Source of the DNA: Actinomycetes bacterium
GTDB taxonomy: Bacteria; Actinomycetota; Acidimicrobiia; Acidimicrobiales; RAAP-2
Assembly (NCBI GenBank): GCA_021806045.1
Contig: JAJZDI010000005.1
Coordinates: 1 to 64,000 of the forward strand
Direction: 5' to 3'
DNA length: 64,000 nt
Shown: positions 40,055 through 61,149 of the stretch, one piece after another
Layout: each line of letters opens with the position of its first letter
Position numbering within the stretch: position 1 is the stretch's first letter
Program-made: the position numbers and the translations under genes
The notes under the pieces: model-generated
The model's input: the letters and a program-made list of their open reading frames with translations, nothing else
Told to the model about the DNA's origin: nothing
Database searches by the model: none

Positions 40055-41185
40055 ATGACCGTGACCGACGACGCCGATCGTCCGGCGTACGACGAGTTGC
40101 CGAGCGAGTCGCCGCTCGGCGCACCGCTCGACTGGGCCTGGCTGCGGGGAGCCAAGAGCGAGTGGGGGATCCACCCGAAGCCGAGCCCGCGGGGCCTCAC
40201 CATGCTCGACATCGCGGTGGGCACCTACGGCGACATTCCCGAGCACCCGCCGCGCCGGTCGATGGCGCCGCGGGGTGCCGACGTCGACGACGACGTCGTC
40301 GACATGGGCTACATCCTCAACTCGAAGACGGACGTGTGGGCGGAGAACACCCGCGAGCTCTACGAAGAGGCCGTCGCCCGGCAGTGGTCGGCGACGAGGG
40401 ACATCCCCTGGGGCGAGCTCCAGGAGCTCCCCGACGACGTGGAGCACGCCGTGTGCCAGCTCTGCACCCTCCTGACCGAGGTCGAGATGATCGCGGCCGA
40501 CCTGCCGGCCAAGTGGATGTGGCGCATGAACCACGACTTCATCGAAGCCAAGATGTTCCTCTGCACGCAGATCATGGACGAGGCCCGCCACGCCGAGGTC
40601 TTCCGCAAGCGGGCCCTCGCCAACGGGGGTGGCCTCCTGCTGTCGCGGGGCGGACCCACCAGCCTGCTCCGCACCATCATCGAGGCGAAGACCTACACCC
40701 AGGCCTCCGCACTGCTGCACCTGCTCGGCGAGGGCTTCGTCCTCGACATCTTCCGGATGGGCGAGCTCATCGCACCGACCGACGTGGAGAAGCGGATCTT
40801 CCGCATGTGCATGCAGGACGAGGCCCGCCACGTCGCCTACGGCACCATGCACCTCCGCTACGCGGTGGAGAACGATCCCGACGTCGCCGAGGAGATCCAC
40901 GCCGCCCTCGACCACGGGGAGCAGGTCCTGATCGACTTCGGCACCGCTCCCGATGTCAGCACGGCCCTCGCCCTGCTCCTCGCCGGCGGCGCCGAGCACG
41001 TCGAGGACAAGGGCTTCCCGCTCGCCCTCGAGCTCACGAAGAAGCAGTTCACCTCGTACCTGGCCCGGTGCGAGCGGGCCGGGATCAGCCGGCTGGAACG
41101 CACGACGGTGCCGCTCGACCTGTTGGGCATCGACCCGGAGCAGGTCCGGGGCGCCGCTCCGGCGGCCCAGGGAGCGCAGTCATGA
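40055..41185 (+). CDS. ferritin-like diiron oxygenase/oxidase with two DEARH motifs
   Basis: The product is 376 residues from the ATG at 40055 with GGGGAGG upstream; the frame opens at 39995 but that start lacks a ribosome site. A four-helix diiron core is indicated by Glu142/Glu144 (LLTEVEMIAADLP), DEARH at 175-179, Glu225 (LLHLLGEGFVLD) and DEARH at 255-259. Such ExxH/DEARH pairs bind two irons that activate oxygen in R2-like oxidases, aryl N-oxygenases and monooxygenases. It heads a four-gene operon ending in a ferredoxin, a likely electron donor. The reaction is unknown. Confidence 0.85.
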   Translation: MTVTDDADRPAYDELPSESPLGAPLDWAWLRGAKSEWGIHPKPSPRGLTMLDIAVGTYGDIPEHPPRRSMAPRGADVDDDVVDMGYILNSKTDVWAENTRELYEEAVARQWSATRDIPWGELQELPDDVEHAVCQLCTLLTEVEMIAADLPAKWMWRMNHDFIEAKMFLCTQIMDEARHAEVFRKRALANGGGLLLSRGGPTSLLRTIIEAKTYTQASALLHLLGEGFVLDIFRMGELIAPTDVEKRIFRMCMQDEARHVAYGTMHLRYAVENDPDVAEEIHAALDHGEQVLIDFGTAPDVSTALALLLAGGAEHVEDKGFPLALELTKKQFTSYLARCERAGISRLERTTVPLDLLGIDPEQVRGAAPAAQGAQS

Positions 41186-41619
41186 GCCCGGCCATCGACA
41201 CGGTTGCGTTCTTCGACGCACTCTCCGACGAGATGAACGCGTCGACGGAGCGGCTGCGGATCGTCGGCGATGCCGACATGACCGCGGTGGTGGTCATGCA
41301 CCGGCCCGGGGGCGATCTGCGCGTCCGGCTGGTCTTCGAGGGCCTGATCTGCGCGGGCGTGGCCGAGGTCGGCGCGGAGGAGGCCGGCCATGCCGACTTC
41401 GCCCTGGTGGGCGACCTGGCCGACTGGCAGGGCATGTTCGACGACATCGTCGCCAACGGCCGGGCGACCGGGCTGTGGACCATCAACAGCCTGGCCCTGC
41501 TGGGCGACCGCATCAGCTGCCAGGGGGACGACCCCATGGGACTCGACAAGTTCTCCCGCTTCAACCAGACGTTGCAGGAGTTCTTCGACGGCGCCGCCCG
41601 CATCGCGGTCGCGGCCTGA
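41182..41619 (+). CDS. SCP2-like sterol/lipid-binding protein
   Basis: The product is 145 residues from an ATG overlapping the diiron stop as ATGA. The second half, ADFALVGDLADWQGMFDDIV followed by WTINSLALLGDR, resembles the SCP2 fold in strand order and length. SCP2 domains bind sterols or acyl chains, so it may present a lipid to the diiron enzyme. The homology is weak by eye, and an enzyme-specific small subunit is the alternative. Confidence 0.62.
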   Translation: MSPAIDTVAFFDALSDEMNASTERLRIVGDADMTAVVVMHRPGGDLRVRLVFEGLICAGVAEVGAEEAGHADFALVGDLADWQGMFDDIVANGRATGLWTINSLALLGDRISCQGDDPMGLDKFSRFNQTLQEFFDGAARIAVAA

Positions 41620-41638
41620 ACGGCAGGAGGAGATCACC

Positions 41639-41845
41639 ATGGACGCACCCCGCTGCCCGCACTGCGGCGAACCGGTCACCCGTGCGCTCGACCTGCCCTA
41701 TGGCTGGTGGGAGTGGACGGGCGACGGCTACCGCCTGACCACCGCCTCGGACCGGGTGGACGTCTCCCCCTGGGTCCACTGGGACTGCATGGGCGAGCTG
41801 CGCCAGTTCCACCCGCAGGACGTGGGCACCTACCAGATGCGATGA
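41639..41845 (+). CDS. small CxxC protein of the diiron operon
   Basis: The product is 68 residues with AGGAGGAG before the ATG. CPHCG at residues 6-10 and a later HWDC could form a zinc site. The rest is rich in Trp and Tyr (YGWWEWTGDGY). I do not recognise the family. It may be an assembly or coupling factor between oxygenase and ferredoxin. Confidence 0.72.
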   Translation: MDAPRCPHCGEPVTRALDLPYGWWEWTGDGYRLTTASDRVDVSPWVHWDCMGELRQFHPQDVGTYQMR

Positions 41846-41855
41846 TGGGAAGGCT

Positions 41856-42272
41856 ATGAGCTTCCGGGTCGAGGAGGACGTGTGCATCGGCTGCGGTGCG
41901 TGTGACTTCTCGTGCCCGACGGGGGCGCTGACCAAGACCGAGTCGTTCCTCGGGCTCTTCGCCATCGACCCCTACACCTGCGATGACTGCGCCATCTGCG
42001 TGGAGAAGTGCCCGGTCATGGCCATCGTCCCCGATCCGGCGTGGCCGGTGTGCCGGGGGCACGGCTGCCCGCTCACCTCCAAGCGGCTGGCCGGGGTGGA
42101 CTGCGCCATCTGGCAGGAGCGCTGCCCGTCGTGCGGCTCGACCATGTGGATCACGCCCGACGGCCGCCATGCCTGCTCCCGCTGCGACCTCGAGATGAAG
42201 GTCACGTGCCCGAAGAGCCGCCATCTGGGGGAGACGGCACCGTCGCCGTCGCCCGTGTCGGCCCGTCACTGA
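41856..42272 (+). CDS. 2[4Fe-4S] ferredoxin with C-terminal zinc-ribbon-like extension
   Basis: The product is 138 residues. The first cluster motif is CIGCGACDFSCP (Cys10, 13, 16, 20) and the second is CDDCAICVEKCP (Cys42, 45, 48, 52), as in bacterial 2[4Fe-4S] ferredoxins. An extension of about 75 residues carries further Cys pairs (CRGHGC, CPSCG, CSRC) that look like a zinc ribbon. It is the last gene of the diiron operon and probably donates electrons to the diiron site. It could also serve the P450 under the matching promoter. Confidence 0.9.
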   Translation: MSFRVEEDVCIGCGACDFSCPTGALTKTESFLGLFAIDPYTCDDCAICVEKCPVMAIVPDPAWPVCRGHGCPLTSKRLAGVDCAIWQERCPSCGSTMWITPDGRHACSRCDLEMKVTCPKSRHLGETAPSPSPVSARH

Positions 42273-46633: not shown

Positions 46634-48091
46634 TCAGCCGGAAGTCGAGCCGAGCAGCCCGCTGCTCGTGCTGTTCAGCGTGTTCGACAGCCCGCTGCTC
46701 GTGCTGTTCAGCGTGTTCGACAACCCGCTGCTCGTGCTGTTCAGCGTGTTCGACAACCCGCTGCTCGTGCTGTTCAGGGTGTTCGACAGCCCGCTGCTCG
46801 TGCTGTTCAGCGTGTTCGACAGCCCGCTGCTCGTGCTGTTCAGCGTGTTCGACAGCCCGCTGCTCGTGCTGTTCAGGGTGTTCGACAGCCCGCTGCTCGT
46901 GCTGTTCAGGGTGTTCGACAGCCCGCTGCTCGTGCTGTTCAGCGTGTTCGACAACCCGCTGCTCGTGCTGTTCAGCGTGTTCGACAACCCGCTGCTCGTG
47001 CTGTTCAGCGTGTTCGACAACCCGCTGCTCGTCCCCGGACCGGATCCGGTGCCCGATGCGGGAGCCGGGGACGGCCCTGAGGACGGCGGCACGGGCGACG
47101 TGGCTGGACGCAGCGGTGTGGCCGTCCCGCCAGCCCCAGCCGTGGACGACGGCGGCACGGTGTGCGTCCCCGTCGTGCTCCCGGCGGTGGGCGACGCATG
47201 GGACGGAACGGCCACGACCGGCCGGACCGGCACCTGGGGTCGGGCCGCTGCGCCGGACAGCATGAGCGCGGTGCCGACGGCGACGGCGACGGCACCCGTG
47301 GCCACGGCCATCTGCGGAACGTAGGAGGCAGCTGGCTCCTCGCCGACGACCATGTGCTGGCCCACGGCCGCAGCGTGGCGGAGCGGGACGGCGACGCGCG
47401 CCACCAGGCGCCTGGGCAGGGCCAGGACCAGGGCGATGAAGCCGCCAACCCGGCTTTCGGGGCCGGCCATCACGGCGAATTCGCGCTTGAGGGCCTGGCG
47501 TGCACGCCACAGGAGCGTTTCCACCGCGGCGACACCGACCCCCTCGTGCTCCGCGATCGCCTGGTAGGACCAGCCGGATCCCTCGCGCAGCCCGAGCACC
47601 CGCTGGTGGCGCGACGAGAGCTTGGCGAACGCGGCGGACACCATCTGCGCGTCGGCCTGGCGGACGAGCGCGTCCTCGGCGTCGTCATGGGCGACGTCGG
47701 CCGCCTGGAGCTGGGCGTCGTCCACGGGTGTCTGGCGCCGGCGACGGCGCTGGATGTCGACGCACTGGTTGGCGGCGATCACCGTCAGCCACGGGTAGAA
47801 GCGCCGCTCGCCGGCGAAGTTGGGGAGCGCCCGCCACGCCTTCGCGAACGCCTCCTGGGCAGCGTCCTCCGCCTCGTGCTGGTCGCGGAGGCGCTGGAGG
47901 CAGAACCGGAAGAGCCGGCGGTGGTAGCGCCGGTAGAGGACGTCGAAGGCGGTCGCATCACCGGCCTGGCACCGTTCGACGAGCTCACGATCCCGCCGGA
48001 TGTCCACGTTGCCGTCGCCGGATTCGCTGACGTCCACCAGGCCATCGGGAACCACACCGACAAGGTGGATGTCGTCGCTTCGGAGCGCCAC
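46634..48091 (-). CDS. ECF sigma factor fused to a transmembrane helix and a repeat tail
   Basis: The product is 485 residues from a GTG with GGGGAGG upstream. Sigma region 2 is RELVERCQAGDATAFDVLYR, then HEAEDAAQEAFAKAWRALPN. Region 4 is LSSRHQRVLGLREGSGWSYQ, then AIAEHEGVGVAAVETLLWRA. After about residue 215 it does not end. A hydrophobic helix (YVPQMAVATGAVAVAVGTALML) follows, then a Pro/Thr/Ser-rich region and 11 copies of SSGLSNTLNST. The tail should lie outside the membrane. ECF proteins with such fused tails are thought to be self-regulating membrane sensors, a role I infer here. Confidence 0.9.
   Translation of the reverse strand: MALRSDDIHLVGVVPDGLVDVSESGDGNVDIRRDRELVERCQAGDATAFDVLYRRYHRRLFRFCLQRLRDQHEAEDAAQEAFAKAWRALPNFAGERRFYPWLTVIAANQCVDIQRRRRRQTPVDDAQLQAADVAHDDAEDALVRQADAQMVSAAFAKLSSRHQRVLGLREGSGWSYQAIAEHEGVGVAAVETLLWRARQALKREFAVMAGPESRVGGFIALVLALPRRLVARVAVPLRHAAAVGQHMVVGEEPAASYVPQMAVATGAVAVAVGTALMLSGAAARPQVPVRPVVAVPSHASPTAGSTTGTHTVPPSSTAGAGGTATPLRPATSPVPPSSGPSPAPASGTGSGPGTSSGLSNTLNSTSSGLSNTLNSTSSGLSNTLNSTSSGLSNTLNSTSSGLSNTLNSTSSGLSNTLNSTSSGLSNTLNSTSSGLSNTLNSTSSGLSNTLNSTSSGLSNTLNSTSSGLSNTLNSTSSGLLGSTSG
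46656..47018 (-). repeat. 11 tandem copies of a 33-bp unit
   Basis: Eleven units of exactly 33 bases differ at only two positions (AGC/AGG and GACAG/GACAA variants). They encode the 11-residue repeat of the sigma-factor tail. Because 33 is a multiple of three, other frames stay open across the block, which creates false open frames on the opposite strand. Confidence 0.95.
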
Positions 48092-53737: not shown

Positions 53738-55038
53738 GCGCCCTACGGGTGGTCGTGCGGGCCGCCGTCGTGCTGTCGGTCATCGCCGGTGCCGTCGCCG
53801 GCGTCACGGTGGCGGTCGCGGCATCGGATGGCGCGTTCGCCGGTTCCTACCAGGTGGTGGGGACGTTCCCCGCCGCCGGCCAGGGGCTCCATCCGGGCTC
53901 GGAGGTCACCTTCGACGGCGTCCAGGTCGGCCGGGTCGGTTCGATCGCCCTCGCCGGCCAGCGCGCCCGGATCACGCTCGTGCTCCAGCACCAGTTCCGG
54001 CTCCCCCGAGCCGCCACCGCCACCATCCGTCCGCAGAACCTGTTCGGCGCGGAAGAGATCGCCCTCACCTCCCCCCATGGCGATGCCGGCCCGTGGGTGG
54101 CCGCCGGGGCGACGGTGGCCCGCACGGCCATCTCCAACCAGATCGCCGATCTCTTCGCCGTCGCCGATCCGCTGTTGTCGAAGGTCGACGCCGCCGACCT
54201 GTCCTCGTCGCTGTCCGAGCTCGACCAGGCGACGTCGGGCGAAGGCCCCCGGATCGCCTCCGGCCTCTCGGCCGGGAGCCGCCTGGCCGGCCTGCTGGCC
54301 ACCACGATCGGCGCTCAGCTCCACGCGCTCGACTCGCTGACCGCCTTCTCCGCGGCGGTCGCACCGGACGGTGCCGGCATCAACGCCGTGGCGGGCCAGG
54401 CCAACGCGGCCCTCCCCGCGATCAACGCCGCCGAGGCCGCGTACCAGCACCTCCTCGACACCCTCACCCCCCTGGCTCACGACGTCGCCCAGTTCCTGGC
54501 CGCCTATCGGCCGGACATCGGTGCCCTGCTGCAGAGCGGCGACAACGTGACCCGGGTGCTGGTCGCCCACCAGAGCGACATCGAAGCCCTGGTGCGCGGG
54601 CTCTACCAGTACGTGACCAAGATCGCCCTGGCCGCATCGGGTTCGCAGACGTTGCCCGACGGCTCGAAGTTCGCCTACTTCCGCACCTTCATCGAGTTCA
54701 GCGACGTGAACAACCTCGTGTGCAACCTGATCGCCCCGGCGGCTCCGTCGCTCTCGTACCTCGCTCCCCTCCAACAGGCACTCGGCGCGTCGGGGAGCGC
54801 GTTCGACTGCTCGGCACAGGTGTCGACGTTCAATTCGCTGCAGCACGGCTCGGCCACGACAGCGCCACCGCCTGCGACGCCGGCGCCCGCAGCCACGACG
54901 CTCCCCACCGGGACGGGCGCGCTGTCCGCTCAGGGAGCGGCCGTGGCCGGTCAGCTCTACCAGGCGCTCGGTGCGCCGCAGGCCCCCGCGCCCCACACGT
55001 TGGCGGGCTACCTCTCGATGCTCCTGGGGGCCGGATGA
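53734..55038 (+). CDS. Mce family protein, first (MceA position)
   Basis: The product is 434 residues. One N-terminal helix precedes the MCE/MlaD domain (about residues 40-115): VVGTFPAAGQGLHPGSEVTF, then DGVQVGRVGSIALAGQRARI. A long helical region and a Pro/Thr-rich tail follow. Mce subunits assemble a hexameric tube that carries lipids across the cell envelope. All six mce genes here overlap or nearly touch, so they form one operon with the permeases. Confidence 0.93.
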   Translation: MSALRVVVRAAVVLSVIAGAVAGVTVAVAASDGAFAGSYQVVGTFPAAGQGLHPGSEVTFDGVQVGRVGSIALAGQRARITLVLQHQFRLPRAATATIRPQNLFGAEEIALTSPHGDAGPWVAAGATVARTAISNQIADLFAVADPLLSKVDAADLSSSLSELDQATSGEGPRIASGLSAGSRLAGLLATTIGAQLHALDSLTAFSAAVAPDGAGINAVAGQANAALPAINAAEAAYQHLLDTLTPLAHDVAQFLAAYRPDIGALLQSGDNVTRVLVAHQSDIEALVRGLYQYVTKIALAASGSQTLPDGSKFAYFRTFIEFSDVNNLVCNLIAPAAPSLSYLAPLQQALGASGSAFDCSAQVSTFNSLQHGSATTAPPPATPAPAATTLPTGTGALSAQGAAVAGQLYQALGAPQAPAPHTLAGYLSMLLGAG

Positions 55039-56156
55039 AGGGCCGGGCCCGGCAGGGACGCTCGCGGCACCTGGGAACCGCCCTGCGGTTCGGTGCCTTC
55101 GTGGTGGTGTGCCTCGTCCTGCTGGTCGCACTGGCCCAGCGGATCGGCAACCTCAGCCTCTTCAGCCACCGCGTCACCTACGAGGCCCAGCTCTCGGACG
55201 CCACCGGCCTCCAGCCGTCGGACTCGGTCAAGATCGCCGGGGTCACCGTCGGGCAGGTCACCGCCATCGGCGTCCAGCGGGGACACGCCCTCGTCACCTT
55301 CGCCGTCAACAGCGGCGTGCACCTCCGCACCAGCACGAAGGCGGGGCTCCGGTGGCACAACGTGCTGGGCCAGCAGTACCTCTACCTCTACCCGGGCGCC
55401 ACAGGCACCGCCCTCCGCCCCGGCGGGGTCATCCCCCTCGCCAACGACGTGGCGAGCGCCAGCGTCGGTGCCCTCCTCAACGCGCTGGGCCCGTTCCTCT
55501 CGGCCGTGAACCCGCAGCAGGCCAACACCTTCCTGCGCAGCGTGGTCGCCGCCCTCGACGGCAACGAAGCCAAGGTCAACAGCCTGATCGCCGACGCCGC
55601 CACCGTGTCGCAGACCGTCGGCTCACTCGACAGCCAGGTCGGCCAGGTCATCGGTGATCTCGACCAGGTGCTGACCGCACTCGCGCACCGAAGCGGTGAC
55701 ATCGGCACCCTGCTCTCCAACCTGCAGTCGGTGGCACAGACCCTGGCCAGCCACAACGCCCTCCTCGACTCCGTCGTCACCAACCTCGCCTCGGTGACCG
55801 GCGAATTCGCCGGGCTCGTCCGGTCGAACCAGGGAACGCTGCAGTCCTCCATCGCCGACCTCCAGTCGGTGACCTCGGTGGTCCAGGCACACGAAGCCGC
55901 CCTGTCCCAGGGGCTGTCGACCCTGGGGTCGGGTCTCGCTCCCTACGCGGAGATCTCGGCGTTCGGCCAGTGGTTCCAGATCCAGACCGTCTACACGTGC
56001 ATGGCCGGCGAGACGAGCTGTACCTACATCAACCCGTCCAACCCACCGGCCGGGTCCGCGCCCGGCGGGGCGGCACTTCCCGGGGGACTGGGAACGCCGG
56101 GGACGTCACCGCTGTCCATGCTCCAGATGGTCGCCGGCACAGGGAGCGGTTCGTGA
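55035..56156 (+). CDS. Mce family protein, second (MceB position)
   Basis: The product is 373 residues from an ATG overlapping the upstream stop. After an N-terminal helix the MCE domain shows VTYEAQLSDATGLQPSDSVK, then IAGVTVGQVTAIGVQ, and LGQQYLYLYPG. The C-terminal region has heptad-like helices (VGSLDSQVGQVIGDLDQVL) expected for the tube needle, then a Cys pair (YTCMAGETSC) and a Gly/Pro tail. Confidence 0.93.
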   Translation: MKGRARQGRSRHLGTALRFGAFVVVCLVLLVALAQRIGNLSLFSHRVTYEAQLSDATGLQPSDSVKIAGVTVGQVTAIGVQRGHALVTFAVNSGVHLRTSTKAGLRWHNVLGQQYLYLYPGATGTALRPGGVIPLANDVASASVGALLNALGPFLSAVNPQQANTFLRSVVAALDGNEAKVNSLIADAATVSQTVGSLDSQVGQVIGDLDQVLTALAHRSGDIGTLLSNLQSVAQTLASHNALLDSVVTNLASVTGEFAGLVRSNQGTLQSSIADLQSVTSVVQAHEAALSQGLSTLGSGLAPYAEISAFGQWFQIQTVYTCMAGETSCTYINPSNPPAGSAPGGAALPGGLGTPGTSPLSMLQMVAGTGSGS

Positions 56157-57313
56157 AGGCCTTCACCGACCGCAATCCCCGGCGCATCGGGATCGTGGCT
56201 GCTGGCGTCATCGTCGCCGTGGTGGCCGCCGTCCTCGTCCTCAACCGGTCGTTCTTCGCGTCCGGCTACGCGGTCGACGCCCGCTTCCCGGCGGCCGGCG
56301 GCATCTCGCCGGGCACCGACGTCCTGGTGGCGGGGGTGAAGGTCGGCTCGGTGACCTCCGTTCGCCTGGTGGGTGACCACGTCGACGTGTCGATGCTGAT
56401 CGATCACGGGGTGGTGCTCCCGTCCCGCACCGCTGCGGCCGTCAGCGTCCAGACCCTTCTCGGACAGCTGGACGTGACCCTGCGCCCGATCTCGGGATGG
56501 TCGCGGCCGCTGGCCAGCGGGGCGTTGATCACGGACACGTCGCTGCCCACCGAGCTCTACAACGTGGAGAACGAGGCCGGCACCGTCCTGGCCGGCACCG
56601 ATGCGGGCGCGCTCAACAGCCTGGTGACGGAGCTCTCCTCCATCGCGGCGGGGAAGCGGACCGAGATCACCCAGATCGTCAACGGACTCAACCGGTTCAC
56701 CGGCGTCGTCGACCAGCGCCGCACTCAGGTCAGCCAGCTGATCGACGCGGCCAACGTGCTGTCTGCAGCGGTCCAGCATCGGGACACCCAGCTTGCGTCG
56801 GCCATCGACAATCTGTCCACGGTTGTCGGCGGGTTGGCCCAGCACAGCACCGACCTCGGGACGCTCATCGTCAACACCGAGCAGGCTGCCTCCCAGGTGG
56901 ACACCCTGGTGGGGCGGAACACACCGCAGTTGACGGGATTGATCAACCACCTCGATTCGGTGCTCGGCGTGCTCTCGACCCACCAGCTCGACCTGGCCCA
57001 GGGGGTCTCCACGCTGGCCAGCGCGGTGACCGGATTCCAGTCGGTCGGGTACTCGGGACCGGGCAACACGCCCAACCAGTGGGCCAACATCTACACCAAC
57101 CTGCTCGGCACCTCGGGTGTCTACGGCGTGCTGGGCAACTGCGGCGCGCTCGACCAGGTCCTCGACCAGGCGCTCGGACCGGATCCGCTGGCGTGCAACC
57201 AACGGTCGGGACCGCTGGCTCCCGGCGCCGGTGCCACCGTGCCGGGAACGTCGCCGACCGCTGCCGCCGGTTCCACGGGGCTGGGGAGCGTGGTCACCGG
57301 AGGTGGCTCATGA
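56153..57313 (+). CDS. Mce family protein, third (MceC position)
   Basis: The product is 386 residues from a GTG overlapping the upstream stop as GTGA. An N-terminal helix (GIVAAGVIVAVVAAVLVL) precedes the MCE domain: AVDARFPAAGGISPGTDVLV, then AGVKVGSVTSVRL, and LGQLDVTLRP. Long amphipathic helices and a Ser/Gly-rich tail follow. Confidence 0.93.
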   Translation: MKAFTDRNPRRIGIVAAGVIVAVVAAVLVLNRSFFASGYAVDARFPAAGGISPGTDVLVAGVKVGSVTSVRLVGDHVDVSMLIDHGVVLPSRTAAAVSVQTLLGQLDVTLRPISGWSRPLASGALITDTSLPTELYNVENEAGTVLAGTDAGALNSLVTELSSIAAGKRTEITQIVNGLNRFTGVVDQRRTQVSQLIDAANVLSAAVQHRDTQLASAIDNLSTVVGGLAQHSTDLGTLIVNTEQAASQVDTLVGRNTPQLTGLINHLDSVLGVLSTHQLDLAQGVSTLASAVTGFQSVGYSGPGNTPNQWANIYTNLLGTSGVYGVLGNCGALDQVLDQALGPDPLACNQRSGPLAPGAGATVPGTSPTAAAGSTGLGSVVTGGGS

Positions 57314-58737
57314 CTCGCCGTGCCGTCCGTCTCGGGGCGTGGGTCGTCTCGGTCGCCATCGTCGTCACCGGCGCGGCGGTGGCCGTGAGCCGGTCCGCCC
57401 CCACCTACGAGCTCCAGGCCGTCTTCGCCAGTGCTGACGGGTTGTTCGCGGGCAACAGCGTGGAGATCCTCGGCGTCCCCTCGGGCACGGTGCGGTCGGT
57501 GACGAACGTGGGAGACGCCGTCCGGGTCGCGATGACCCTCGACGGCGACCGGCGGGTGCCGGTGGGAGCCCACGCCGCACTCGTCTCGCCGAACCTCCTC
57601 GGCGAGCCGTCCATCGAGCTGTCGCCCGGATACACGGGCGGACCCTCGCTGCGCCCAGGGGCGACGATCGCCGAATCCGACACGTCGGTGCCGGTGTCGA
57701 CCGACCGGCTGCTGCGCGACCTCCAGGCGTTCCTGTCCAAGATCGACCCGACGGCGACCGGCAACCTGATCACGAACCTGGCCACCGACCTGGCCGGCCA
57801 GGGCACGGGCATCAACGCGCTGCTCGGCAACGCGGCCGGGACGGTGTCGCTGCTGGCGCAGAAGGGTGACGACCTCGGCCGGCTCGAGGCGGCACTGGCC
57901 CAGATCACCGCCACGCTGCGCAACCGGACGTCGACGATCACCGGCCTGATCCGCAACTACGACACGGTCACCTCGGTCATCGCCGCCCATCAGGGGCAGC
58001 TGGGCACGGCGCTCTCCGACCTCTCGGACGCCACCGCCAAGCTGTCGCAGTTCCTGTCCCCCAACCTGGGGACGATCGAGAGCGACATCGCCGGTGTCAC
58101 CAGGGTGGGGAGGACGCTCGATCGGAACCTGTCCTCCCTCGACCAGACCCTGTCGTCCGCCGTGCTCCTCTTCACCGCCGCCCAGCGCGCCTACGACCCC
58201 GCGCACAACTGGCTGAACCTGAACAACCAGCTCGCTCCCGGCCTCACCTCGGCGGTCCTGGCCGGCCTGCTCCGTGACCGGCTCGCCGGCATCTGCCGGC
58301 GGCTCCTGGCCCACCATGCCGCTGGGCTCGACGCCTCCCAGCGGTCGACCCTGACCACCTGTGGCAACCCGAGCTCGGGGTTCTTCAACCCGATCCTGGA
58401 TCTCTTCCCACCCATCCTGAACGCGCTGACCACCGGTGCCGGCGGGGGGCCGAACCCGGCGGCACTCCAGGCCCTGCTGGCCAAGGGGCTGGCCATGATC
58501 CCCGGCACCTCGGCCCTGGCCGCGACGCCGGTCGGTGCCCAGGCGCCGTCCGGCACCCCAGCGGCGCCGTCCGGCAGCACGTCCGGCGGCACGCCGTCAC
58601 TGCAGGCACCGGCCGCTGCGCAGCTCCCGCCGCTGCCGGGTCAGTCCTCGGGTACCGCCGCACCGTCAGGTGGAGGATCGTCGGGCTCCGGTGGCGGGCT
58701 GGGCGGGCTGCTCGGTGGCTTGTTCGGAGGTCTGTGA
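57310..58737 (+). CDS. Mce family protein, fourth (MceD position) with Gly-rich tail
   Basis: The product is 475 residues from an ATG overlapping the upstream stop. The MCE domain has YELQAVFASADGLFAGNSVE, then ILGVPSGTVRSVTNVGD and LLGEPSIELSPGY. The C-terminal 90 residues are Pro/Ala/Ser/Gly-rich and end GGGLGGLLGGLFGGL, similar to the end of the Gly-Ser protein upstream of the operon. It is the longest Mce subunit in the operon. Confidence 0.92.
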   Translation: MTRRAVRLGAWVVSVAIVVTGAAVAVSRSAPTYELQAVFASADGLFAGNSVEILGVPSGTVRSVTNVGDAVRVAMTLDGDRRVPVGAHAALVSPNLLGEPSIELSPGYTGGPSLRPGATIAESDTSVPVSTDRLLRDLQAFLSKIDPTATGNLITNLATDLAGQGTGINALLGNAAGTVSLLAQKGDDLGRLEAALAQITATLRNRTSTITGLIRNYDTVTSVIAAHQGQLGTALSDLSDATAKLSQFLSPNLGTIESDIAGVTRVGRTLDRNLSSLDQTLSSAVLLFTAAQRAYDPAHNWLNLNNQLAPGLTSAVLAGLLRDRLAGICRRLLAHHAAGLDASQRSTLTTCGNPSSGFFNPILDLFPPILNALTTGAGGGPNPAALQALLAKGLAMIPGTSALAATPVGAQAPSGTPAAPSGSTSGGTPSLQAPAAAQLPPLPGQSSGTAAPSGGGSSGSGGGLGGLLGGLFGGL

Positions 58738-58738
58738 G

Positions 58739-59767
58739 ATGCGTATCCCGTCCGCCACACCCCGGCCCGGGGTCCACGCCCGCACCTGGTTGCGGACCGC
58801 CGCCGTCGCCGTCGCCGTCGTCGGGTCGGCCGCGGTCGTCGCCGGTTGCCAGGCGCCCTTCAGCGCGCCTCCCACCGTCTCGGTCGCTGCCGACTTCAGC
58901 GACGTGGGCGACCTGGCCGTCGGGGCGCCGGTCGAGCTGGCCGACATCCCCGTCGGCCATGTGACATCGATCACGTTGCAGGGCTCCGAGGCCCGGGTGG
59001 CCATGGCCGTCCAGCGCTCGGCCGCCGTTCCCGCCGACGCCACCGCCGAGCTCCGGCGCACGTCGCTCCTCGGCGAGCGCTTCATCTCCCTCGTCCCGCC
59101 GACGGGGGGGAACCCGGCGCCGTTGCGTGACGGCGAGCTTCTCCCCCGGGCCGTCGTGATCCCCGGGATCCAGCAGTTCGTGTCGGCCGGAGCATCGGTG
59201 GTGGGCGCCATCGACACCACCCGCCTGGCCGACCTGATCGCCACCGGGGCCCAGGGCTTCGGCGGCCAACAGCAGCAGCTGCGGCAGCTGATCGACGGGT
59301 TCGCCACCGTGGCCCACGGGTACGCGAGCCGCACGTCGGACATCTCCAGGCTGGTCGACACGATGGACCAGCTGTCCTCCTCCCTGGCGCCGGCATCCGG
59401 TCAGGACGCGGCGGCGGTCACGACGCTGGCCCACACCACATCCCTGCTCGCCGACCAGTCGCAGCGGTTCGACCACCTGTTGCAGTCGCTCCAGGACCTG
59501 TCCGTCCAGGGGAGGGGCATCCTCGAGTCCTACATCCCCCAGATAGACGACGAGCTGGCCGGGCTGGCCTCGACCTCCCAGGCGCTGGCCGCCACCGAGT
59601 CGGACCTCGGCAAGCTGATCGACGGGATTCCCGGGCACAACGCCGCGGTGAAGTCGGCCACCGTGGATCACCAGCTCCAGGTGCTCGATGACCTCGTCGT
59701 CTGCGGCCTGCCGGGAGGCGGCGCCAACGCGGCGGTGCCGGCCCAGACGTGCGGGGGTGGCGGATGA
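58739..59767 (+). CDS. Mce family lipoprotein, fifth (MceE position)
   Basis: The product is 342 residues. A signal peptide ends in lipobox VVAGC with Cys37, as usual for the MceE/LprK position. The MCE domain reads TVSVAADFSDVGDLAVGAPV, then ELADIPVGHVTSITL and LLGERFISLVPP. It should be lipid-anchored and would tether the Mce tube. The start lies one base after the upstream stop. Confidence 0.93.
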   Translation: MRIPSATPRPGVHARTWLRTAAVAVAVVGSAAVVAGCQAPFSAPPTVSVAADFSDVGDLAVGAPVELADIPVGHVTSITLQGSEARVAMAVQRSAAVPADATAELRRTSLLGERFISLVPPTGGNPAPLRDGELLPRAVVIPGIQQFVSAGASVVGAIDTTRLADLIATGAQGFGGQQQQLRQLIDGFATVAHGYASRTSDISRLVDTMDQLSSSLAPASGQDAAAVTTLAHTTSLLADQSQRFDHLLQSLQDLSVQGRGILESYIPQIDDELAGLASTSQALAATESDLGKLIDGIPGHNAAVKSATVDHQLQVLDDLVVCGLPGGGANAAVPAQTCGGGG

Positions 59768-61149
59768 TCACCCGCCGGATCGTCGTGAACCTCGTGACCT
59801 TCTTCACCGTGTCGGCCGTGCTGGTGGTGTTCGGACTGCTCGACCTGCTCGGCAACCCGTTCGCGGCGCCGACCGTCGTCGACACGGTCCTCGCCAATGC
59901 GGACGGCCTCTACCCCGGCTTCACCGTGACCCTGAACGGCGTGCCTGTCGGCTCGGTGCGAAGCGTCCAGCTGACGCGTGGCGGCGTGCTCGTCGCCATG
60001 GCCCTCGACCCCGGCTCGCGGGTACCCGGCGATGTGGCCGCCCGGATCGAGGTGGCCAATCCCCTCGGTGAGCAGCAGATCGACCTCGTCCCTCAGCACG
60101 GGGGCACGGCGCCGCCGCTCGTCAACGGGGCCCGGGTGCCCATGGCACCCGGTGGAGGCCCGGCTGACATCGGCCAGGTGGTGGCGGCCGCCACCCGGCT
60201 GTTGGCGGCGATCCCGGTCGGCGACCTCAACACTGTCCTCCACCAGACCGCCGTGGCGCTCGACGGCAGGGCGGCCGCCGTGCGGGCGCTGATCAATGAC
60301 GGCCAGCAATTCTCGCAGGAGTTCGTCGGGTATCAGCAGGCGTTCCGGACCCTCCTGGCCGACGCTCCGCCCGTGCTCGACTCGGTGACGGCGGCCGGGC
60401 CGCAGCTCCACGACGCGTTGACGACGACAGCCGCCCTCCTCGGCGTGCTGGCCAGCCACCAGCAGGCGGTGCTCTCGCTGCTCCGTTCGGGAGCCAGCAC
60501 TGCGCAGCTGCTCGACGCCGCCGTCGTGGCGGAGCGTCCCAACCTCGCCTGCCTCGTCCACGATCTGCGGGACACGGTGGTGAACCTCGCGCAGCCGGCC
60601 AACCTGGGCTCGTTGGCCGGCGCACTGGCCACCAACGGATCGTTCTTCACCATCGTCAACGAGCTGACGCCGACAGGTCCGGCCCGCAGCCTGGTAGCCG
60701 GCCAGCCGGCCAGTGCGGACCAGGTATGGCTCCGGACACGGCTCCTGCTCCCGCCCGTGCTGAGCCCACAGGCGGTCACCTATGCGCAACAACGGACCTT
60801 GCCGGACATCCTGCCCGGCGCGGCGTGCCGGACGGAATTCGGCGCCGGGGTGGCGGCGGGAACGCAGGCCGGCTTCGTGCCGGAGGCGCCCGGCGTCACG
60901 GTCGTCCCACCGACGCCGGCTGAGGCGCAGGTGCGGGGGTCGGGTACCCCGCCGACGGACCCCACCCTGGCCGGGGACCCCGCGCCCACCGGCGGTGGCG
61001 CACCGGCGGGACCCGCCGTTCCGGTGATGGGCTCGGCCGCCGTACTGGCCGCAGGACCGCTCCGGCGCCGCGCTCGGCGCTTCCGCCGAGATCTCCGTGC
61101 GGCACCACGGGGGCGTCGCACCCACCATGAGGAGGAACACCATGGCTGA
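59764..61149 (+). CDS. Mce family protein, sixth (MceF position)
   Basis: The product is 461 residues from an ATG overlapping the upstream stop. An N-terminal helix (NLVTFFTVSAVLVVFGLLDL) precedes the MCE domain: VLANADGLYPGFTVTLNGVP, then VGSVRSVQLTRGG and LGEQQIDLVPQ. The C-terminus has a second hydrophobic stretch (VMGSAAVLAAGPLRRRARRF) followed by a basic and His/Glu tail. That could be a second membrane contact and is unusual. Confidence 0.92.
   Translation: MITRRIVVNLVTFFTVSAVLVVFGLLDLLGNPFAAPTVVDTVLANADGLYPGFTVTLNGVPVGSVRSVQLTRGGVLVAMALDPGSRVPGDVAARIEVANPLGEQQIDLVPQHGGTAPPLVNGARVPMAPGGGPADIGQVVAAATRLLAAIPVGDLNTVLHQTAVALDGRAAAVRALINDGQQFSQEFVGYQQAFRTLLADAPPVLDSVTAAGPQLHDALTTTAALLGVLASHQQAVLSLLRSGASTAQLLDAAVVAERPNLACLVHDLRDTVVNLAQPANLGSLAGALATNGSFFTIVNELTPTGPARSLVAGQPASADQVWLRTRLLLPPVLSPQAVTYAQQRTLPDILPGAACRTEFGAGVAAGTQAGFVPEAPGVTVVPPTPAEAQVRGSGTPPTDPTLAGDPAPTGGGAPAGPAVPVMGSAAVLAAGPLRRRARRFRRDLRAAPRGRRTHHEEEHHG

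Follow-up and report, generated by a model that had tools for sequence, protein, structure and literature searches.

Among the described O2-activating ferritin-like enzymes, R2lox holds a lipid-type ligand, and VlmB, the azoxy synthase of valanimycin biosynthesis (PDB 6d9f/8wvr), is an oxygenase with a DEARH motif. In the portion of the published account drawn on here, VlmB acts with VlmO in an azoxy pathway, and neither an SCP2-like protein nor a ferredoxin is named as its partner (PMC11705231). Cyanobacterial aldehyde-deformylating oxygenase (ADO) is supported by ferredoxin and FNR (PMC3691600). In ubiquinone synthesis (UbiJ/UbiT), an SCP2 fold works alongside hydroxylation enzymes: within a complex of Ubi enzymes, UbiJ uses its SCP2 domain to bind ubiquinone intermediates, and the Ubi hydroxylases, which use O2, are in some bacteria replaced by Coq7 among others (PMC6747719).

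Here we analyzed an operon of an Acidimicrobiales bacterium in which a ferritin-like diiron protein, an SCP2-like protein and a ferredoxin are encoded side by side. Judging from sequence and predicted structure, we lean toward a ferredoxin-dependent diiron oxygenase or oxidase that would act on a hydrophobic small molecule. ADO and ubiquinone synthesis are precedents for parts of this arrangement and not evidence that the operon belongs with either of them; compared with UbiJ/UbiT, the sequences and the oxygenases differ and a shared operon was not seen. We would file the operon with the known diiron oxygenase systems, its unusual fixed SCP2-like partner being what is new. In the literature searched, which did not extend to subscription literature, we found no description of the gene set. 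No curated family accepts the diiron protein either, in line with a preliminary sequence-only reading that could not match these genes to a named pathway.

Operon organization

The window, meaning the whole stretch of 64,000 nucleotides that was analyzed, belongs to contig JAJZDI010000005.1 of assembly GCA_021806045.1 and carries the operon at 40055-42272 (Table 1). The sequence-only reading had placed four ORFs here; all four are present on the plus strand, and an independent codon-position gene caller returned the same four starts and ends. The linkage is as tight as had been described: the diiron and SCP2-like genes share an ATGA overlap (diiron stop at 41183-41185, SCP2-like start at 41182), and gaps of 19 and 10 bases separate the 68-aa gene from the SCP2-like gene and from the ferredoxin gene, respectively. 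As for an RNA hairpin or terminator 3' of the ferredoxin gene, the predicted folding of this region was no better than that of shuffled sequences.

Table 1. Genes of the operon, with positions in the window
Feature	Position	Strand	Remarks
Ferritin-like diiron oxygenase/oxidase candidate	40055..41185	+	376 aa; predicted ligands E144, E176, H179, E226, E256, H259
SCP2-like protein	41182..41619	+	145 aa; C-terminal motif DxxGxDKFxRxxxTLQxFFD
Zinc-type protein	41639..41845	+	68 aa; C6xxC9 ... H/C47xxC50; clade I only
2[4Fe-4S] ferredoxin with Cys-rich zinc-ribbon-like C-terminal extension	41856..42272	+	138 aa; Fer4 2e-10

Distribution and co-occurrence of the genes

When 396 genomes were sampled evenly across the phylum, only the order of the window had close relatives of the diiron protein; other parts of the phylum had more distant ones. 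Within the order, a match is present in 48 of 298 genomes and is close in about 30, and Microthrix-labelled genomes are among the carriers. A maximum-likelihood tree comprises clade I, which has the 68-aa gene (branch 100/100), clade II, which lacks it, a subclade III (41-44% identity) and a distant group (about 29-37%). Clade I also takes in two loci labelled Acidobacteria and Proteobacteria, whose MAGs may carry wrong labels.

We scanned GTDB species genomes, found 158 relatives of the diiron protein and kept 80 loci. The diiron, SCP2-like and ferredoxin genes occur together at 74 of these (~56-100% identity), with the 68-aa gene present at 44 and absent at 30 of the 74. Several of the remaining six loci are interrupted by contig ends. 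Locus L033 has no ferredoxin gene at this place, and neither has L088, in a genome where one lies beside a second diiron gene (L141). At L087 (Aciditerrimonas), which was scored as complete, a divergent ferredoxin is encoded upstream on the opposite strand.

The diiron gene is present in 14 of 61 related genomes, its products being at least 56% identical to the window protein. All 14 have the SCP2-like gene, compared with 0/47 of the other relatives (Fisher 4e-14, calculated as if genomes were independent, which they are not), and all 14 have the ferredoxin, compared with 1/47 (counted without correction for shared ancestry). The single exception is a fragment of the Cys-rich ferredoxin tail at a contig edge of a genome in which no diiron gene was detected (G044:C189:3-170), perhaps because the assembly is incomplete. 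The gene trees correlate (r 0.75-0.83, 70 loci), as they would under simple vertical descent.

The association that the sequence-only reading had supposed is thus clearly conserved, and the operon stands as a co-conserved unit, but with a core of three genes and not four. The 68-aa gene is present in all of clade I apart from two rows that contig ends interrupt, and is absent outside this clade; a conserved core of all four genes is ruled out. No further neighbor is constant, the next commonest family lying close by in 20 of the 80 loci at scattered positions. In clades I and II the genes outside the unit vary, which excludes a wider fixed operon there. Because the diiron, SCP2-like and ferredoxin genes are found together across Acidimicrobiales, they very probably act as one oxidation machine, whose substrate is probably hydrophobic.

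The diiron protein

The two DEARH motifs reported earlier are located at residues 175-179 and 255-259. All six predicted ligands are invariant in 88/88 relatives, in the pattern E...ExxH...E...ExxH, and so are D175, R178, F183, D255, R258, G263 and H266. The assignment of E144 rests on its invariance and on the alignment with VlmB, since the first ligand of R2lox aligns one residue off. This ligand pattern and the four-helix-bundle matches of a low-confidence model (Z 16-19) place the predicted protein in the ferritin-like diiron carboxylate superfamily.

No Pfam or NCBIfam cut-off was reached. The best matches were R2lox (2e-8, the best in NCBIfam), DUF455 and ribonucleotide reductase R2. Against PDB sequences, the profile found VlmB first (E 2.5e-13) and R2lox (6e-8), while ADO was not significant (E 0.69). 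The AlphaFold model is poor (pLDDT 59.7), so the structural ranking of relatives is weak: ADO scores highest (Z 19.5), R2lox and VlmB both reach 17.5, and the hydroxylase of soluble methane monooxygenase is also matched. For VlmB and R2lox, the fold matches agree with the sequence profile. On this combined profile and model evidence, the nearest relatives are VlmB, to which the similarity is remote, R2lox and ADO. The nearest solved relatives, the methane monooxygenase hydroxylase included, are O2-activating ferritin-like enzymes, which supports an O2-activating role.

Three memberships were rejected. For R2lox, the score is 33.7 bits versus a cut-off of 194, and the crosslink tyrosine is absent: Tyr162 of R2lox, which forms the Val-Tyr ether crosslink five residues before the third ligand, aligns with L221, a position occupied by Met, Leu or Ile in the 88 relatives. 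For ribonucleotide reductase R2, PF00268 gives 14.1 bits versus 33.6, and the invariant F183 occupies what we take to be the position of the radical tyrosine, four residues after the first ExxH histidine. For AurF-type N-oxygenases, the window protein has no PF11583 match at E up to 1, and a distant relative reaches 23 bits versus 29.6. The extra histidine ligand of AurF presumably lies near the fourth ligand, four residues before E256; at this putative site we find Cys, Ala, Ser, Thr or Val and no His. Of the comparison with R2lox and AurF that had been suggested, the likeness to R2lox therefore stands at superfamily level, whereas membership of the R2lox or AurF (Pfam) families does not.

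Cyanobacterial ADO is a shorter protein and, to our knowledge, has no SCP2-like partner. A hydrocarbon-forming enzyme like ADO, with the SCP2-like protein carrying fatty aldehydes and the ferredoxin giving electrons, would fit the top fold scores (Z 19.5 and below) and the ferredoxin/FNR dependence of ADO (PMC3691600). We consider it quite improbable: those scores come from the low-confidence model, the profile relation is significant for VlmB and R2lox and not for ADO, and a general survey of conserved neighbors brought no acyl-ACP reductase to notice. No VlmO-like gene was noticed either among the recurrent neighbors in this general survey.

The SCP2-like protein

No Pfam or NCBIfam family matches the SCP2-like protein. 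Its profile found nothing among PDB sequences, and the fold is therefore assigned from the model, which is confident (pLDDT 91.8). According to Foldseek and VIA matches, the closest fold is that of Thermus SCP2 (2cx7, 1wfr), with Z 14.2, rmsd 2.3 over 124 residues and 22% identity to 2cx7, and the SCP2-like character read from the sequence is borne out at the level of predicted fold. Unlike Thermus SCP2, the window protein lacks a Pfam SCP2 match, and its family has a C-terminal motif of its own (Table 1). We propose that it may carry a hydrophobic substrate or present it. SCP2-like folds are also found as domains in other enzymes (Eis, macrolide methyltransferases) and no lipid-pathway gene is constant near the operon, which weakens the lipid-carrier reading.

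UbiJ is among the fold matches. Since ubiquinone synthesis pairs SCP2 with O2-dependent hydroxylases, Coq7 being one option (PMC6747719), the operon might tailor isoprenoid quinones, the SCP2-like protein corresponding to UbiJ and the diiron protein acting as a hydroxylase like Coq7. This strikes us as highly improbable, as the diiron protein has no Coq7 family match in Pfam or NCBIfam and the patchy occurrence of the operon (14/61 relatives) is unlike what a core quinone pathway would lead one to expect.

The ferredoxin and the 68-aa protein

The ferredoxin contains two CxxCxxCxxxC motifs, covered by two Fer4 stretches (Pfam), and eight further cysteines. Its cysteines are kept in 71-76 of 76 relatives, the eight cluster cysteines in 74-76. 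Among the further cysteines, C90xxC93...C107xxC110 looks like a zinc ribbon, so that the earlier description as a 2[4Fe-4S] ferredoxin with a zinc-ribbon tail is upheld, and we propose the protein as electron donor. The 68-aa protein, likewise found as an ORF with the C6xxC9 motif expected of it, belongs to no accepted Pfam or NCBIfam family. At position 47, His and Cys replace each other (24:20), and C6, C9 and C50 are conserved, a pattern typical of a zinc site.

A set of proteins for peroxide scavenging, iron handling or metal assembly, and not for oxygenation, would also make use of a ferritin-like fold, and ferredoxin and zinc-type partners would suit redox or metal handling. An OsmC-like gene moreover adjoins one distant homologue (L142). 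We hold this to be very unlikely, because the nearest profile relatives are VlmB and R2lox, not rubrerythrin or ferritin, and the dedicated SCP2-like partner would have no obvious role. At that distant locus (L142:6471-8095), a lone diiron homologue is followed by the OsmC-like gene, which the OsmC-related (seleno)protein model matched below cut-off.

Proposed mechanism

In the diiron oxygenase or oxidase that we favor, the ferritin-like protein would bind two metals (iron, or Mn/Fe) and activate O2, and the electrons would come from the ferredoxin, itself reduced by a reductase whose gene lies elsewhere. The cavity of the SCP2-like protein would hold the substrate (an acyl chain, an isoprenoid, a steroid-like compound or similar) and present it to the diiron protein, or couple substrate to enzyme. 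In clade I, the small zinc-type protein might be an assembly or coupling factor. The reaction would likely be a hydroxylation, desaturation, epoxidation or C-C cleavage. We infer the metal content, O2 activation, electron transfer, substrate class and complex formation in this scheme. Tentatively, and with somewhat more doubt than conviction, we further suggest a distinct multicomponent diiron oxygenase class, with an SCP2-like lipid carrier as obligate third component, for an unrecognised lipid modification in Acidimicrobiales.

If true, this would add to diiron enzymes a three-component design that has a lipid carrier as fixed partner. It would also give a function to assign in the Acidimicrobiales, most of them uncultured, Microthrix-labelled genomes among them. 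Most carrier genomes probably leave the diiron, SCP2-like and 68-aa genes without a name, since the three proteins fall under all Pfam and NCBIfam cut-offs.

Neighborhoods of related and distant loci

In subclade III, the clusters L127, L138, L141 and, up to a contig end, L128 contain, besides the diiron gene, two PF04909-type amidohydrolases and a PF02538-type hydantoinase B (HyuB), the families having been tested on L127. The HyuB resembles caprolactamase subunit beta, and a HyuA-like ORF adjoins in a single instance (L138). These genes could mean that the substrate contains nitrogen and is less greasy, which weakens the hydrophobic-substrate reading. They could belong to a module for the catabolism of an amide, a lactam or a hydantoin-like compound. 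The diiron enzyme would hydroxylate this compound, the SCP2-like protein would be a subunit for binding or an effector, and the amidohydrolases and HyuA/HyuB of the related clusters would open it. We regard such a module as unlikely for the operon, given that clades I and II, the window included, lack these genes as regular neighbors and that the SCP2 fold favors a hydrophobic ligand. Moreover, subclade III is just 41-44% identical, so its substrate may differ.

The distant group has no SCP2-like or ferredoxin genes nearby and shows a TusA-like N-terminal stretch with a weak score (PF01206, 17.7 bits versus 28.6). Seven distant homologues (L129, L130, L132, L134, L135, L136 and L140), from several families of the phylum, each sit in a conserved trio whose other members are a FadE16/Rv1679-like acyl-CoA dehydrogenase and a binding-protein-like gene of the Rv1680 family; HMMs named the families for L129, and the others were named by eye. 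A literature search on Rv1679/Rv1680 returned no description of the gene set, and a search of plasmids gave remote matches only.

Two further links to lipid metabolism were set aside. The hopanoid cyclase shows no association with the diiron gene (p 1.0; 61 relatives). Genes of the mce type are weakly associated, being present in 9/14 diiron-bearing genomes versus 13/47 other relatives (p 0.024, uncorrected and not phylogeny-aware), and were not used as evidence. In the window, six MlaD-domain genes form a mce-type lipid import operon at 53845-60093 (+), about 12 kb downstream. The window also holds a 33-base tandem repeat (11.5 copies, 97% match) at 46655-47032, within a minus-strand ORF (46637-48091) whose start resembles a sigma factor by eye.
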